This document shows positions 35,126-43,456 of a DNA stretch of 64,000 nucleotides, in pieces; positions within the stretch are counted from its first letter, which is position 1; the number at the start of each line of letters is the position of its first letter. The translations under genes and the position numbers were made by a program. Source of the stretch: Pseudarthrobacter sp. W1I19 (lineage in GTDB: Bacteria > Actinomycetota > Actinomycetes > Actinomycetales > Micrococcaceae); assembly GCF_030817835.1 (NCBI RefSeq), contig NZ_JAUSZR010000001.1:4464001-4528000 (forward strand). The letters are read 5' to 3'. The notes under the pieces are model-generated. The model ran no database searches and was not told the DNA's origin. It worked only from the letters and a program-made list of their open reading frames with translations.

Positions 35126-35319
35126 GAAAGGCGCCTTTCATAGGCCATTTTCGCTGATCCTAGCGCGACGAGGAGTAGATTACACAGTCAAGCTCAAAGT
35201 ATGCCGTTAGGATCCTCAAGACTTAATCAAGCTTTTCCGCCTGTTCCTTGTACCTTAGTGGTGGGTTTGAATACCGGCTGGCGCTGGGCCAGTGCGGAGT
35301 CAACCAAAACGGGGGGGCC

Positions 35320-36102
35320 GTGGGCGACCTGGGTGTGGCTGTAATCATTGAAGATGACCTGGATCTGCGCAATCTCGTGGAGGGGGTCTTCCTTCAATCC
35401 GGCTTTATCGTGCATACGGCCGAGGACGGCCGACATGGTGTGGAGGTGGTGCGGGACAAGCGGCCCGATGTGGTGACCCTGGATGTCGGGCTGCCTGATA
35501 TTGACGGCTTCGAGGTGCTGCGAAGGATTCGCCGGTTCAGCAACGCGTATGTCGTGATGCTGACGGGAAGGACCGAGGAACCTGATCTGCTGGCCGCTCT
35601 TCAGGGCGGGGCGGATGACTACATCACCAAGCCGTTCCGGCCCCGGGAAATGCGGGCACGTGTCGCGGCGATGATGCGCAGGCCAAGGAACACAAACGTT
35701 GAACCCGAGGAAGACCCGCAGCCGCTGCCGCCCGCGCCCCTGGCTGTTACCGGCGGCCCGGTCCTCGACCATGACGGGTTGAGGTTGAACCCCAGGACCC
35801 GTATCGCCACGCTGGGAGGGGCACCGCTGCAGTTGACGCGGAGCGAATTCGACCTTCTGCACGAGCTGCTCCGCGCTTCCGGTGCCGTCCTGTCACGCGC
35901 TGACCTCATTCGCGCGGTCCGGGGGAACAATTACCCCGAGGATGCTTATATCAGCGACTCCGATGAGCGCGCGGTCGAGGTGCATATCGGTAATCTTCGC
36001 CGGAAGCTCCGGGACGATCCCGAATCGCCGCGGTGGCTGCAAACGGTTCGCGGCGCCGGCTATCGGCTGGCCGCCCGCCGGCTTCCGGACGCGCCGGACT
36101 GA
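35320..36102 (+). CDS. OmpR-family response regulator
   Basis: 260 residues from the GTG at 35320, which has GGGGGG just upstream; GTG at 35335 is another option. The receiver domain (residues 5-120) has the acidic pair in IEDD, phospho-acceptor D55 in LDVGLPD, and K104 in ITKPFRP. An acidic/proline-rich linker follows. The C-terminal winged helix (LTRSEFDLLHELLRASGAVL to NLRRKLRDD and VRGAGYRLA) is OmpR-type. No histidine kinase is adjacent; the convergent neighbour is an Hpt-like protein without its histidine. The kinase must be elsewhere. Confidence 0.92.
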   Translation: MGDLGVAVIIEDDLDLRNLVEGVFLQSGFIVHTAEDGRHGVEVVRDKRPDVVTLDVGLPDIDGFEVLRRIRRFSNAYVVMLTGRTEEPDLLAALQGGADDYITKPFRPREMRARVAAMMRRPRNTNVEPEEDPQPLPPAPLAVTGGPVLDHDGLRLNPRTRIATLGGAPLQLTRSEFDLLHELLRASGAVLSRADLIRAVRGNNYPEDAYISDSDERAVEVHIGNLRRKLRDDPESPRWLQTVRGAGYRLAARRLPDAPD

Positions 36103-36125: not shown

Positions 36126-36587
36126 CTATCCGCGGTGCTGGAGATACTGTGCCTGAAGTTCTTCCACGGTGGCTCGCCCGTGAACTGAAATCAGCTCCCG
36201 GACCGATCCTCCGCTGAGGTCGCCCCCACGAACCGCGGACTCCAAGGCCTGCGCCAGGCCTGCCAGGCGCCGCGCCCCCACCATGGTGGAAGAGACCTTC
36301 AGGCTGATGGCCGCATCCAGCGCTGCGGCACGGTCCTCATGTGCAAGTGATGCCATGAGGCGGCGCTCCCGCTGTTCCCACAGCCCCACGTAGTCCTTCG
36401 CGAAATTCGTGGCCAGGTCCGGCTGTCCGAGCTGGTGTTCGAGATCCTGCAGCACCACTGGATCCACCAGCGGCACATTAGAGCTGCCGTCGGATGGCAC
36501 GGCCGAAGCGGGTGTCTGCGGTTCGCTTGTCGCCGCTGTTGATTTTTCACCGCCTGACGGTGTCTGTGGTGATGCTGAAATGACCAT
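36126..36587 (-). CDS. Hpt-like protein lacking the phospho-accepting histidine
   Basis: 153 residues. Residues 1-40 are Ser/Thr/Pro-rich; residues about 42-150 form an Hpt four-helix bundle (LVDPVVLQDLEHQLGQPDLA, ALDAAISLKVSSTMVGARRL, AGLAQALESAVRGG). In active Hpt domains the core reads A-A-H-S-L-K-G-S; here it is AAISLKVSS, with Ile94 in place of His, so classic phosphotransfer is not possible through this residue. It is convergent with the OmpR-type regulator. It may act as a binding decoy or structural partner for a receiver domain (inference). Confidence 0.75.
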   Translation of the reverse strand: MVISASPQTPSGGEKSTAATSEPQTPASAVPSDGSSNVPLVDPVVLQDLEHQLGQPDLATNFAKDYVGLWEQRERRLMASLAHEDRAAALDAAISLKVSSTMVGARRLAGLAQALESAVRGGDLSGGSVRELISVHGRATVEELQAQYLQHRG

Positions 36588-36984
36588 GTTTTGAGGCTAC
36601 GTCCCTTCATGATTCCAATGCCCTGTCTTCGGCGGATCCTGCGCAAACCTTGGCGCCGCCTTGATCGGGCCCGGCCGGGAGTGCGAGCACTGGCTGAGCC
36701 GCCCGTTTGCGGGGAGGTCCGTGGGCCTGCCCGTTGTTTTCCCAGTTTTCTTTGGGCATTGCCGCTGTTTCCCTTGATTCTCCCTAGCTTTCCAAGGGTT
36801 CCCCGAAGTTAATCCAAGGAACGGATTTTTATGGTTTTGCCGCTGTTAGCTTCGAGATGTCGATGTGATGCGGACGGAGTTTCGGTCCGTGTCCGTTGGC
36901 AGCGGCATCCAGTTGTACCTGGGGGTTGCAACCGCCGCGGAGCCCGCTCAGGGGCTGCCGGGCTTCCTACCTGAAAGAGAAACC
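36588..36984. promoter_or_regulatory. long leader region before the exported protein
   Basis: About 400 bases without a gene. Within it GCCGCTG at 36839 can pair with CAGCGGC at 36900, enclosing a hairpin built on ACGGA/TCCGT at 36874-36890. GGTTGCAACC, a ten-base palindrome, follows at about 36924. A folded 5' leader is plausible; no known riboswitch consensus was recognised. Confidence 0.35.
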
Positions 36985-37383
36985 ATGCGCACTTCTGCAA
37001 AGATCGTCACCGCCCTGTCCGTCACCGGCCTGGCCCTCGCCGCCGGCTCCGCCTTCACCGGCGCCGGCCTCGTCAACGCCGCCGGATCAAGCCAGTTCGT
37101 CGGCGGTACCGTGACCCAGAGCGTTACCGGCGCGACCCTGACCAACCTGGAATATGGCTTCACCAACGCCACGAACTCGGACGCCGTCAACAAGGTCACC
37201 CTGACCTTCGCACCAGGCGCCACAGGCAAGGCCGTCAACATTTCCCTGGCCGGTGGCACCCCCGCCGACTTTACCTGCACCGACATCGACGTCGACGGAC
37301 TCTCCATCTGTGACCCCACCGTTCCGGGAACGAGCCAGAGCGGCGTTACCAACGCGTCTGTCACCGTCACGGACGCCGTCTAA
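36985..37383 (+). CDS. small exported protein, likely SipW-type signal peptidase substrate
   Basis: 132 residues from an ATG behind GAAAGAG. The signal peptide is MRTSAKIVTALSVTGLALAA followed by GSAFTGAGLVNAAGS, with a cleavage-like VNAAG. The mature part is about 95 residues, Thr/Val/Gly-rich and acidic, of beta character (GGTVTQSVTGATLTNLEYGF, KVTLTFAPGA), with two cysteines (CTDIDVDGLSIC) that could form a disulfide. The location directly before a SipW-like signal peptidase gene and the beta-rich mature domain recall TasA/camelysin-type matrix proteins, though the sequence is not clearly that family. A strong hairpin separates the two genes. Confidence 0.7.
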   Translation: MRTSAKIVTALSVTGLALAAGSAFTGAGLVNAAGSSQFVGGTVTQSVTGATLTNLEYGFTNATNSDAVNKVTLTFAPGATGKAVNISLAGGTPADFTCTDIDVDGLSICDPTVPGTSQSGVTNASVTVTDAV

Positions 37384-37393
37384 CAATGAGCGT

Positions 37394-37436
37394 GTGAGTG
37401 GCCGGTCCGCCGGGGTGCCGGCCACTCACCCTTTTC
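37394..37436 (+). terminator. hairpin between cargo and signal peptidase genes
   Basis: GTGAGTGGCCGG pairs with CCGGCCACTCAC (12 bp), followed by CCCTTTTCTCTT. It could terminate most transcripts and let only some continue into the peptidase gene, giving far more cargo than enzyme. Confidence 0.75.
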
Positions 37437-37446
37437 TCTTCGAGCC

Positions 37447-39015
37447 ATGTCCGTCCGTTCCCGAGAGGGGTTCGCCTTGCCACAGCGGCTGACGCACCGC
37501 CTCCGCGCCGTCGTCCTTGCTGTCATCGCGATTCTGGGAGCGTGCGTTGGGGTTGTTCTGGCCAGCGGCCAGGCCGGTATCGTCATCACCCATGGCGTCA
37601 GCATGAACCCGCTCTACCACCAGGGCGATCTTGTCATCATCGCCCGTGCCTCCTCCTATGCGGTCGGCGATATCGCCGCGTATAACCTTCCGGGCCGGGA
37701 CGAGGTGGCGCTGCACCGCATTATCGGTGGCAGCGACGGGGCTTTCGTCTTCAAAGGCGACAACAACCAGTCCGTTGACCCCATCACCCCCCGCGCCGCT
37801 GATCTCGTGGGACGGGCGCTCGTCCATGTCCCCCAGGGCGGGCTGTGGTTGGGAACCCTGACCAGTCCCCCGGTCTTGGGCCTGCTGGCTTTCGCGCTGC
37901 TGGCCGGCGGGAGCGCGGCAACGACAAGGCGCCGCCGTAAACGAAGGAGAGCATCCATGTCCCGCCACATCAGTACGCGTCCCTCCACCCGGCAGGGCCT
38001 GGTCGGCCTGCCGCCCTCGCTGCGGATTTCCACGGCACTTGCCGTGGTCTTCGGCGTCGCCGGGGTTACCCTCGGTGCTTTGGCGTGGTCCGGTCCGTTG
38101 GAGGAAACGGCCGCCTCACAGGTCAAGAGCGGCACGCGGATGGACTTCTCCTACACCGCGGACGTCGGGCAAAGCGCGGCCTACGACGGGACCACGGCCA
38201 AATCACCGGACCCGGTCTTCCGGAAACTCGCCAAGACTGTCGATGTCGGTTTCAGCTATCACGGCGAGCCCGGAACGATGACCGTGACAGCGGAGTTGTC
38301 CACCCCGGGAGGCTGGCATTCCACGCTTCCCCTTACCGGCCCGGTGGATTTTGAGAGCAACGACTGCGAGGGCACGGCGCGGCTGGACCTGGCAAGCCTG
38401 GATGCCAAAGCCCAGGCCGCGTCAGCGGTCACAGGTCTTCCGGCCGGACCTGTTTCCGTCGCCCTGACCCCGGCCGTTCGGACCGCGGAGGGCGTGGAAT
38501 TCCGGCCTGAACTCAAACTCGAGCTCACACCCCTGCAGCTCACCCTCGCCGGTGGGCCGGGCACCTTGTCTGTCACTGATTCGGCCACCCATCAGCACAC
38601 CGCCATGGTGCCCCGCATGATCGGTATCAACGGGTTGTCGGTGACTGCGGCCGCTACCCGTATCATCTCGTCAGTGTTCCTGCTCGCTGCCCTGGCCACC
38701 GGAATCATCATCATCGTTTTCGCCGGCCGCTCCACCCTCGGGGACGAGGCGGCGGTGATCCGCCGCCGCTACGCAGCGTTGCTGGTGCGGGTCCACCCGA
38801 TGCCGGCGCCCCAAGGCAGGCCCGTCATCGATGTCACGACGTTCCCGACCCTGGCCAAACTGGCCGAACGCTACGGCCTGCTCGTCCTTCACTGGTCCCG
38901 CAGCGGTGTGGAAACCTTCGTGGTCCAGGACGAGAACATCACCTACCGTTACCGGGCAGGGTCAGAGCCTGCCCCCGCCGAACCCCAGCCCCAACCGGCC
39001 GACACACAGGCATAA
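37447..39015 (+). CDS. sipW: SipW-like type I signal peptidase fused to a DUF5305-like domain
   Basis: 522 residues; ATG at 37447, or TTG at 37477 with a better ribosome site (GAGAGGGG). Residues 1-150 form an S26B signal peptidase: helix AVVLAVIAILGACVGVVL, catalytic Ser52 in GVSMNPLYHQGD, and His90 in VALHRIIGG in the place where bacterial Lep has Lys, as in SipW and the eukaryotic ER enzyme. Helix 2 (PPVLGLLAFALLAGG) and a basic patch (RRRRKRRR) follow. A third helix (ISTALAVVFGVAGVTLGALA) leads to a beta-rich extracytoplasmic region of about 200 residues and a fourth helix (ISSVFLLAALATGIIIIVF). The second half looks like DUF5305. Placing it after a small exported protein suggests a dedicated processing pair. 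Confidence 0.82.
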   Translation: MSVRSREGFALPQRLTHRLRAVVLAVIAILGACVGVVLASGQAGIVITHGVSMNPLYHQGDLVIIARASSYAVGDIAAYNLPGRDEVALHRIIGGSDGAFVFKGDNNQSVDPITPRAADLVGRALVHVPQGGLWLGTLTSPPVLGLLAFALLAGGSAATTRRRRKRRRASMSRHISTRPSTRQGLVGLPPSLRISTALAVVFGVAGVTLGALAWSGPLEETAASQVKSGTRMDFSYTADVGQSAAYDGTTAKSPDPVFRKLAKTVDVGFSYHGEPGTMTVTAELSTPGGWHSTLPLTGPVDFESNDCEGTARLDLASLDAKAQAASAVTGLPAGPVSVALTPAVRTAEGVEFRPELKLELTPLQLTLAGGPGTLSVTDSATHQHTAMVPRMIGINGLSVTAAATRIISSVFLLAALATGIIIIVFAGRSTLGDEAAVIRRRYAALLVRVHPMPAPQGRPVIDVTTFPTLAKLAERYGLLVLHWSRSGVETFVVQDENITYRYRAGSEPAPAEPQPQPADTQA

Positions 39016-39134
39016 CCGGACATGTCCAGGCAGGCGTCACACCGCGGCCTTCTAACAGCCGGTCCAGTACCGGCCCCTGACGACCGCAACACTTCCCTGC
39101 TGCCGGGAGGGTAATCGGACGGCCAGGGGGCCGG

Positions 39135-39845
39135 TTGGGGGTGCGCGTATTCATCGGCAGCCGCCTTCTGCTGTGTGTGCTCGCCGCGCAGGCAGCCTTC
39201 GTCCTTGCCCTCACTGCATGGCTGCATTTCCTGGCTCCCCGCGTCCAGGAGCCGGCCGTCCTGACCGGCGTGCTCGCTTCCTTCGCCGCAGGCATGATCC
39301 TTGTGGCCGGCTGGACCCCATACCGCGGCGTGCGGGGGCACAGTGAGGAACGGAACCGGAACAACATCACTTCAAGCCTGATGGACACGGTGCTGGACAC
39401 CAGCCAGGAATGGCTCTGGGCGGTGGACGGTGCCGGAACCTTCACTTTCTCCAGCAGTGCCAGCACCACCTTGCTCGGTTACGAACCCCGCGAATTGGTG
39501 GGCAGGCCTTTCAGCCAGCATCACGGGCGATCACTTGTCCAAGGCCCGAGAGGCAGTCAACGTGGCCTTGAACGCCGCTCAGGGCTGGACAGCTGTCACT
39601 GTCTGCTGCAGGCACCGGGACGGCAGCCCGGTCCTCATGGAGATGTCCGGCAGGTCGTACCCGGCGTTGGACGGGACCGGCCGGCGATTTGAAGGGACCA
39701 ACCGCCTGCTGCCTTCCCAGGTCACGGAAACCCAGGTGGAACAGCGGGTGCGGGAACACATCCGCAGCACCGTCAAAGACGGACTGATCCTCACCGCGTT
39801 CCAGCCCATCCATGACCTGTCCGGCGGGGCCATCGGCGGGATCTC
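39135..39845 (+). pseudogene. broken membrane PAS-EAL sensor
   Basis: Begins with two membrane helices (LLLCVLAAQAAFVLALTAWL; LTGVLASFAAGMILVAGW), then a PAS domain (EWLWAVDGAGTFTFSSSAS to TLLGYEPRELVGRPFS). A frameshift near 39525-39535 moves the rest into another frame: DHLSKAREAVNVALNAAQGW, then TVKDGLILTAFQPIHDLSGG, which is the start of an EAL domain very like the one at 42710-43456. The match ends abruptly at about 39845, and unrelated DNA, coding on the other strand, follows. It is dead as a c-di-GMP enzyme. Confidence 0.75.
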
Positions 39846-42709: not shown

Positions 42710-43456
42710 CTATGGCTCAACGGTGACCCCGACGGCCGGTTGGATCACCCATGACGACCAGTCCAGCGGATGCACGGACGGCCGTCCCATCAGATAGCCC
42801 TGGCCTGCAGTCAGGCCGGCCTCGATGACCGCTGCAAGCTCGGTTTCTGTTTCGATGCCTTCGGCTGCCAGGACCGCTCCAACTTCCCGGGCCAGAGCTA
42901 TCACGGCCGGCTCATCCGGCTCTGGTCCTTCCAGGATCCCATTGATGAATGTTCGGTCGAGTTTGATGATGTCCGGGCGGAGGCTAAGAATTCGGTCGAC
43001 CGGGGTGAAGCCCGGGCCGGAACCGTCGACGGCTACCCGCAATCCCCTTCGGCGGAGCGGTTTCAGCGACCGGGTAACCCTGCCCCATTGTTTGTCATCT
43101 GTTTGGCCCCGGAGTTCAACGACAATCCTGTCCATCGCCAGCCCGGAGTTCTTTAGCAGGTCCTGGGTAAGGCTCTCCGTCAATGTCGTGGGGGTCAGGT
43201 TGAATGCGACGAAGAGATGGGAAGGGACCATCCCCGCCGCGGACACGGCGCACTGCAGTGCGGCTATCTCCAGCTCGATGCCAAGACCTGCAATCTCCGC
43301 TTCCCGGAACCAGGTGTCAGCGTCGGCGCCGTCGCTGCTGACAAAGCGGGTAAGGGCTTCGACCCCGGCGACTCCTCCTTCCGGCAATTTGTAGATTGGC
43401 TGGAACGCCGTAAGCAACAGCCTGCTGCCCAGGACGGACTTGATCCTCTTCGTCAT
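42710..43456 (-). CDS. degenerate EAL-domain protein
   Basis: 248 residues, EAL fold only. The EAL motif itself is present (GVEALTRF), as are KLDRTFI and AEGIETETEL, but the metal-binding DDFGTGY loop is changed to VDGSGPGF, the N of the NIS motif is in NLTP, and ELTE is changed to ELRGQ. Loss of the second Asp in the DDF loop argues against phosphodiesterase activity. It may instead bind c-di-GMP or a protein partner. It overlaps the upstream 114-residue gene by four bases. Its closest relative here is the broken EAL at 39.7 kb. Confidence 0.82.
   Translation of the reverse strand: MTKRIKSVLGSRLLLTAFQPIYKLPEGGVAGVEALTRFVSSDGADADTWFREAEIAGLGIELEIAALQCAVSAAGMVPSHLFVAFNLTPTTLTESLTQDLLKNSGLAMDRIVVELRGQTDDKQWGRVTRSLKPLRRRGLRVAVDGSGPGFTPVDRILSLRPDIIKLDRTFINGILEGPEPDEPAVIALAREVGAVLAAEGIETETELAAVIEAGLTAGQGYLMGRPSVHPLDWSSWVIQPAVGVTVEP

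Follow-up and report, generated by a model that had tools for sequence, protein, structure and literature searches.

A SipW–DUF5305 cassette of Pseudarthrobacter is a variant of SipW-dependent surface-protein systems and may direct c-di-GMP-linked surface fibers

The actinobacterium Pseudarthrobacter sp. W1I19 carries a small gene cassette in which an exported protein, here called the cargo, is paired with a signal peptidase fused to a DUF5305 domain. The closest described systems are the tapA-sipW-tasA locus of Bacillus subtilis and the sipW-bsaABCRSD locus of Clostridium perfringens. In the former, SipW, a signal peptidase of the endoplasmic reticulum (ER) type, is dedicated to neighboring exported proteins, and the available text of the relevant study describes TasA as a SipW substrate with Phe at the P2′ position that is poorly cut by the ordinary signal peptidase of Escherichia coli (PMC10269814). 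TasA polymerizes via donor strands, with TapA serving as the starter, according to the accessible portions of two further reports (PMC9674648, PMC10151520). For the latter locus, the available part of the account states that SipW is needed for the export of BsaA, that BsaA forms filaments, and that the genes are subject to a predicted terminator with read-through and to control by adjoining two-component genes (PMC7395162). Thus, as far as the available text of these sources extends, the proteins served by SipW in other bacteria form filaments (PMC9674648, PMC10151520, PMC7395162). Subunits joined by donor strands are also described for archaeal threads and bundling pili in the accessible part of another report (PMC9715654).

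The cassette resides in a stretch of 64,000 nucleotides (nt), hereafter the window, that corresponds to positions 4,464,001 to 4,528,000 of contig NZ_JAUSZR010000001.1 (assembly GCF_030817835.1); the source genome is a single contig of 4.81 Mb. Its parts, numbered from the first letter of the window, are as follows, where c-di-GMP denotes cyclic diguanosine monophosphate and aa denotes amino acids.

36895..36968, + strand: leader RNA, an apparent diverged relative of c-di-GMP-I (GEMM-I) riboswitches, whose 3′ end lies 16 nt from the cargo start
36985..37383, + strand: cargo, a small exported protein of 132 aa, predicted to be all-beta, with two invariant Cys residues
37394..37429, + strand: hairpin separating the cargo from the enzyme
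37447..39015, + strand: SipW/ER-type signal peptidase–DUF5305 fusion of 522 aa
37600..37602, + strand: Ser52 codon, for a residue that all 14 aligned copies share
37714..37716, + strand: His90 codon, likewise for a residue shared by all 14
37944..37950, + strand: internal ribosome-binding sequence AAGGAGA, spelled with Arg codons that are rare in the fusion gene
37957..39015, + strand: putative second product, a separate DUF5305 protein of 352 aa from an internal ATG, suggested by start-codon conservation and synonymous constraint

We conclude that this cassette is a variant of the SipW-dependent surface-protein systems, with a cargo that sequence searches do not place in the TasA family. Unlike tapA-sipW-tasA, it joins the peptidase to DUF5305 in one gene that holds an internal start, has a riboswitch-type leader and a host among the Actinomycetota, and lacks a TasA or TapA family match. 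It resembles the C. perfringens locus in combining SipW with an exported protein and with two-component genes nearby, and its hairpin may correspond to the predicted terminator of that locus; there, however, sipW comes first, and the available text mentions neither DUF5305 nor a riboswitch (PMC7395162). No family search linked the cargo to BsaA, with which it was not compared directly, and its likeness to the archaeal subunits would be one of analogy. With moderate confidence, we favor the interpretation that the cassette is a c-di-GMP-linked, TasA/BsaA-like surface-fiber system with a dedicated peptidase, which would comprise a leader RNA, two products of the enzyme gene, and DUF5305 as an assembly partner.

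The evidence begins with the pairing itself. The cargo gene stands directly upstream of the fusion in all 38 judgeable loci among 43 named relatives, and the cargo-bearing loci come from Arthrobacter, Pseudarthrobacter, Sinomonas, Paeniglutamicibacter, Actinoplanes, Paractinoplanes, Nocardioides, Glaciibacter and metagenome bins. Three broken copies (L108, L130, L138) and two loci with too short an upstream sequence (L110, L137) were excluded from this count; a first motif rule found 30 of the cargos, a looser rule four, and frame reading four, with L135 partly masked. These named loci overlap with those from our genome searches, some being the same contigs (e.g., L097 and L017). When the genus was searched with the whole fusion, 14 of 101 genomes gave matches, of which seven are full length (window included), one is truncated, and six cover the peptidase half only, and a cargo profile detected exactly the seven genomes with the full-length enzyme. 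The family sample yielded matches in 36 of 197 genomes; six besides that of the window carry full-length fusions, one of them twice, and all seven of these copies have the cargo directly upstream.

More distantly, the DUF5305 half was found in at least four of 297 genomes of the order sample, namely that of the window, one with a weak match, L081 at E 7.8e-4, and two from another family in which cargo and fusion are both present. In the phylum sample, at least five of 346 genomes exceeded the cut-off, all with peptidase fusions, in a search that missed the copy in the window. The large searches scored only part of the candidates (six per genome for the DUF5305 half in the order, 48 for the leader model described below), and misses are therefore possible. 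A cargo could be read in two of the five phylum-level loci (L090, L091); in L089 the frame is preceded by 81 nt, and L092 and L093 were not resolved. Two PF17231 matches below the cut-off (L094, L095) were rejected, one being what looks like an ordinary signal peptidase and the other a protein without relation to the family. L090, from a distant actinobacterium, has three tandem cargo-like genes from about 2085 to 10 nt upstream of its fusion, and the Actinoplanes fusions L114, L117, L118 and L123 occupy far longer open frames (888–1111 residues) than other copies.

The enzyme half of the fusion belongs to the archaeal/ER-type signal peptidases, as indicated by scores above the cut-offs of TIGR02228 (56.5 bits versus 51.85) and Peptidase_S24 (29.1 bits versus 23.3), and Foldseek matched the fusion model best to chains from the human signal peptidase complex, with E values of 3.0e-5 and 5.2e-5. 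For the Bacillus SipW equivalog NF046067 the score is 12.4, below the 190 required. The C-terminal half matches DUF5305 (PF17231) weakly and consistently: all 14 aligned copies do so at E ≤ 0.01 (best 4e-9), and the protein of the window scores 21.1 bits, below the 29-bit cut-off. What differs from PF17231 is the fusion to a peptidase in the intact copies examined. A profile of this half found no match among the sequences of solved structures. Helices are modeled at residues 11–39, 141–167, 190–214 and 401–429 (mean predicted local distance difference test score 71.9, predicted template modeling score 0.35), and because of these positions the beta-rich residues 216–398 would face outside and the C-terminal domain, residues 430–505, would lie inside. 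This inner domain is the most conserved segment of the fusion (mean 0.83, with 30 of 78 positions invariant), whose mean exceeds those of the peptidase core (0.71) and the outer domain (0.67).

An earlier sequence-only reading of this DNA had described a dedicated small exported protein followed by a SipW-type peptidase–DUF5305 fusion with a Ser52/His90 dyad and an extracytoplasmic beta-rich part. Both genes were confirmed at 36985–37383 and 37447–39015, the enzyme class and the invariance of its two catalytic residues bear out the dyad, and the model agrees in placing a beta-rich part where it would be outside. DUF5305 is matched by every aligned copy, with a score below the cut-off for the protein of the window. 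That reading had also proposed a search for conserved neighborhoods, with a lack of association between the two genes as the outcome that would speak against the pairing; the genes proved to be associated in every judgeable locus and in the same seven genomes of the genus. It contained neither the leader RNA, the internal start nor the inner C-terminal domain.

The N terminus of the cargo has positive charges, a hydrophobic core and A-F-T at the likely cleavage site, in a layout, A-G-S-A-F-T, that resembles TasA, with the cut position being a prediction. Modeled as a monomer, the protein is all-beta and its first 45 residues are unplaced. Cargo and peptidase change together. Two Arthrobacter loci (L018 and L019) combine another cargo and another SipW type with the usual DUF5305 half, such that identity to the window is 71% and 68% for DUF5305, 41% and 44% for the peptidase, and 37% and 31% for the cargo (29 loci compared; eight failed the motif). 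Similar pairs of cargo and peptidase types recur in other lineages. Among 37 typed loci, G-type cargos occur with SM[NQL]P peptidases in 24 of 24 cases and SMEP peptidases occur with other cargos in five of five; the rest are seven other cargos with SM[NQL]P peptidases and one untyped locus. For these 37 loci, the partial rank correlation between cargo and SipW identity given DUF5305 is 0.57, a value reached in none of 2000 permutations, and that between cargo and DUF5305 given SipW is 0.42. Six loci that failed the motif in this set (L102, L118, L120, L128, L132, L136) were read by eye and agree with the pairing. Such co-change is predicted by specific recognition, and joint transfer of neighboring genes would give the same pattern. 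On this co-change, the peptidase half would be substrate-matched to the cargo and would cleave it.

A canonical c-di-GMP-I riboswitch core (RF01051, RF03167) can be read upstream of the cargos of many relatives. In a scan that covered 40 of the 43 named loci (all except L108, L130 and L138), the Rfam gathering score was reached within about 25 nt 5′ of the cargo in 11 (L099, L100, L102, L106, L109, L114, L117, L118, L120, L123, L133), to which L007 can be added; the copy in L093 is cut by the contig start. These riboswitches are rare, being found in five of 59 genomes around G064 and in three of 37 in the genus, one of the latter at this locus. The two others (L144, L148) precede open frames of 494 and 387 residues that are not cargos. 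In Arthrobacter mobilis, a riboswitch match (L113:5710-5797 and L028:3208-3295) sits 3′ of the fusion rather than ahead of the cargo.

The window version differs in being diverged and below Rfam detection. It shares its form, 72–74 nt with 95% mean column identity, with L015, L018, L019, L096, L098, L103 and L108, and it is 88–96% identical to the leaders of three relatives, compared with 65–75% for the fusion gene and 51–70% for DNA further upstream. A model built from this diverged leader, R1, matches at least five of 101 genus genomes, once in each and always before a cargo. R1 also recovers three canonical riboswitches where Rfam places them, in L099, L100 and L109, with rough E values of 1.7e-4, 3.6e-3 and 3.9e-3, and its weaker matches are mixed with chance ones, as where L102 5555–5623 (E 0.028) ranks beside the canonical L102 3422–3490 (E 0.030). 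We read the leader of the window as belonging, in diverged form, to the lineage of c-di-GMP-I riboswitches; it may respond to c-di-GMP, and the cassette is probably under RNA-switch control.

The enzyme gene appears to contain a second start. After the second membrane helix, an Arg-rich linker is followed by M or V-S-R-H (T for S in one copy), where the first codon is ATG in eight and GTG in six of 14 copies, with no other Val codon used. Just 5′ of it the aligned copies carry AGG-AGA or a similar sequence, and 13 of the 14 have AGG in one particular column. A sliding test of synonymous identity puts this point at the top of all 416 nine-codon windows (0.87, compared with an expected 0.33; 0.54 and 0.45 for the whole fusion gene). 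A ribosome site with a start occurs in the linker of 23 of 36 loci (22 at the junction, the exception being L120), compared with 3.6 expected from codon shuffles within each gene; the nominal P of 2e-19 assumes independence, which fails because the genes are related. The 36 comprise the window and named relatives, eight of the 44 sequences (L108, L125, L127, L128, L130, L133, L136, L138) being without the frame or its landmarks. Ten of the 13 loci without the strict site have a junction ATG with a weaker site, and L129, L131 and L137 have none. Among distant fusions, two of seven (L090, L092) carry the junction site. Judging from these sequences, the fusion gene probably also yields a separate and complete DUF5305 protein of 352 aa.

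We considered whether L108, from Arthrobacter sp. Soil762, could serve as a natural experiment on the internal start and decided against it: with an altered ribosome site and a third membrane helix that is cut, it appears to be decaying. The remnant (L108:2325-5250) keeps the regulator, Hpt gene and leader and has lost the cargo and nearly all of SipW, and an intact cassette with another cargo type (L102) lies near it on the same contig.

Cargo and fusion genes are both on the + strand, and the 63 nt between them hold a hairpin whose exact 12-base arms occupy 37394–37405 and 37418–37429. Its folding energy of −31.4 kcal/mol was equaled by none of 200 dinucleotide shuffles (z −3.2; z −1.8 relative to 60 simple shuffles). 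Stems of at least 13 pairs lie 3′ of the cargo in 32 of 39 folded stretches, or 30 when L079 and L080, whose stretches are mostly enzyme-coding, are set aside; they are absent in L117, L118, L120, L123, L128, L136 and L090. The sequence-only reading had called this element a terminator. Although the 12-bp hairpin is real, a consensus terminator scan performed no better than chance (two found, 2.0 expected), and a U-rich tail (at least five T in the next eight bases) exists only in the window (5/8) and L102 (6/8). Because the tail is confined to these two, a partial barrier or a stabilizer of the cargo mRNA fits the relatives better than a plain terminator does. A promoter scan of 36500–39200 returned none anywhere, the region upstream of the cargo included, and is thus uninformative.

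Three neighboring genes flank the cassette.

35248..36102, + strand: OmpR-family response regulator, retained as a neighbor in nine distinct related loci
36126..36587, − strand: Hpt-like protein (22.3 bits, cut-off 24.6), retained in the same nine loci
39126..39819, + strand: remnant of a PAS-EAL gene, broken (two frames, EAL cut short), whose counterpart follows the cassette in some relatives

The order of regulator, Hpt gene (on the opposite strand), cargo and fusion is shared by L015, L018, L019, L096, L097, L098, L103, L104 and L105, and a PAS-EAL gene directly follows the fusion in four of these nine (L015, L018, L096, L097). In the remaining loci these neighbors are lacking or placed elsewhere. 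The window also holds an EAL homolog at 42710–43456, on the strand opposite to the broken gene. A search of plasmid records gave no match.

We infer from these features the following mechanism. The riboswitch-lineage leader just 5′ of the cargo start would couple production of the cassette to c-di-GMP. The cargo would be exported by Sec and, because its TasA-like site places Phe right after the cut, an ordinary signal peptidase would cleave it poorly; the SipW half of the next gene would do so instead. By lowering or separating the transcript that reaches the enzyme, the hairpin would leave the cargo in excess. Translation of the enzyme gene from two starts would give both the SipW–DUF5305 fusion and DUF5305 alone. 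With its outer beta domain, two membrane helices and conserved inner domain, DUF5305 is most likely a membrane assembly or anchoring partner that would pass the mature cargo into a polymer, a part akin to that of TapA in Bacillus. The sequence-only reading had suggested that the fused domain might act as a chaperone for the cargo or retain it. The inner domain may also signal, a possibility raised by how one Bacillus SipW paper is titled. The surface or matrix role proposed in the sequence-only reading is favored by the c-di-GMP-I riboswitches before the cargos of relatives and by the EAL genes nearby.

Several results weigh against this interpretation, beginning with the cargo itself, for which family, sequence and fold searches gave no credible link to TasA, camelysin or pilin. 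A Pfam scan of the window cargo (E ≤ 1) returned one family below the cut-off (E 0.058) and no TasA/camelysin family, NCBIfam searches with 14 cargos (E ≤ 10) gave only chance matches and again no TasA/camelysin family, Foldseek comparison of the cargo model with the PDB yielded none at E ≤ 0.001, and the two matches of a cargo profile to sequences of solved structures (E 3.3 and 3.7) are not credible. No conclusion on fold identity was drawn from the weak PDB matches, of which CopC (E 0.09) was best. Moreover, DUF5305 has no established function, the PAS-EAL neighbor of the window cassette is broken, five of the seven distant fusions are without an internal site at the junction, and the hairpin is missing in several Actinoplanes-group loci. 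The cargo might instead be a soluble or wall-bound secreted protein, such as a signal, an adhesin monomer or an inhibitor, and the peptidase might serve only its unusual cleavage site. In favor of this, the cargo resembles no fiber protein and is short, with an all-beta model and a conserved pair of Cys residues. Against this, the studied SipW substrates form filaments in the available text of two reports (PMC9674648, PMC7395162), and c-di-GMP riboswitches before the cargos of relatives suit matrix genes; the unplaced first 45 residues would also fit a donor strand, but low model confidence proves nothing. We regard a non-fibrous cargo as unlikely while giving it real weight.

The RNA elements and the internal start likewise admit other explanations. 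The leader might be an ordinary 5′ untranslated region that has no relation to riboswitches and carries some structure or a site for protein binding: Rfam recognizes no riboswitch in it (nothing at E ≤ 1, and only gyrA RNA, 12.4 bits, at E ≤ 10), it lacks the canonical core letters, none of 22 pairs covaries, because the copies are too alike, and the weaker R1 matches include chance ones that rank beside canonical riboswitches. In addition, no canonical c-di-GMP-I riboswitch was found in the window genome, nor in the control genomes of that search, although the other survey detected this family in five of 59 genomes. Yet its position, size and 3′ motif equal those of the canonical riboswitches of relatives, three of which R1 detects, and an unrelated leader therefore seems rather improbable to us. 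It is also quite doubtful, in our judgment, that the fusion alone is made and that the internal AGGAGA-ATG serves an Arg-rich cytoplasmic linker or local translation pausing. The positive-inside rule predicts an Arg-rich linker following the second helix, internal sequences resembling ribosome sites can slow ribosomes, and the strict site is lacking in 13 of 36 loci. What has been kept, however, is codon choice rather than residues alone, as seen in the AGG column, in the ATG or GTG start of all 14 copies, and in the top rank among 416 windows, and the site exceeds its shuffled expectation severalfold, with the relatedness of the genes qualifying that count. Finally, the hairpin could be a full terminator that leaves the enzyme to its own promoter. 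The U-rich tails of the window and L102 agree with two separate units, a proposal that we consider unlikely given the narrow intergenic gap and the 37 of 39 stretches without such a tail.

A literature search for DUF5305 by name found no mention, with most subscription papers outside its reach, and one for SipW together with Arthrobacter returned, judging from the listing, only papers on other subjects. The c-di-GMP-linked fiber cassette that we favor could, more speculatively, represent an undescribed actinobacterial fiber system with a gene designed to make two proteins, a clade-specific riboswitch variant class, possibly for another ligand, and a cargo and peptidase exchanged between lineages as a matched module; this broader proposal we hold only tentatively.

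For DUF5305, the cassette provides a concrete context, in that the domain is joined to a private signal peptidase in the intact copies examined and accompanied by a small exported cargo at every locus with assessable upstream DNA. As a candidate for making two proteins from one frame, the internal start has good support. The diverged leader may be a riboswitch variant, for which the canonical riboswitch kept at the same place in relatives supplies a built-in control. The cassette also suggests that the TasA and BsaA matrix systems have a counterpart in the Actinomycetota that is linked to c-di-GMP.

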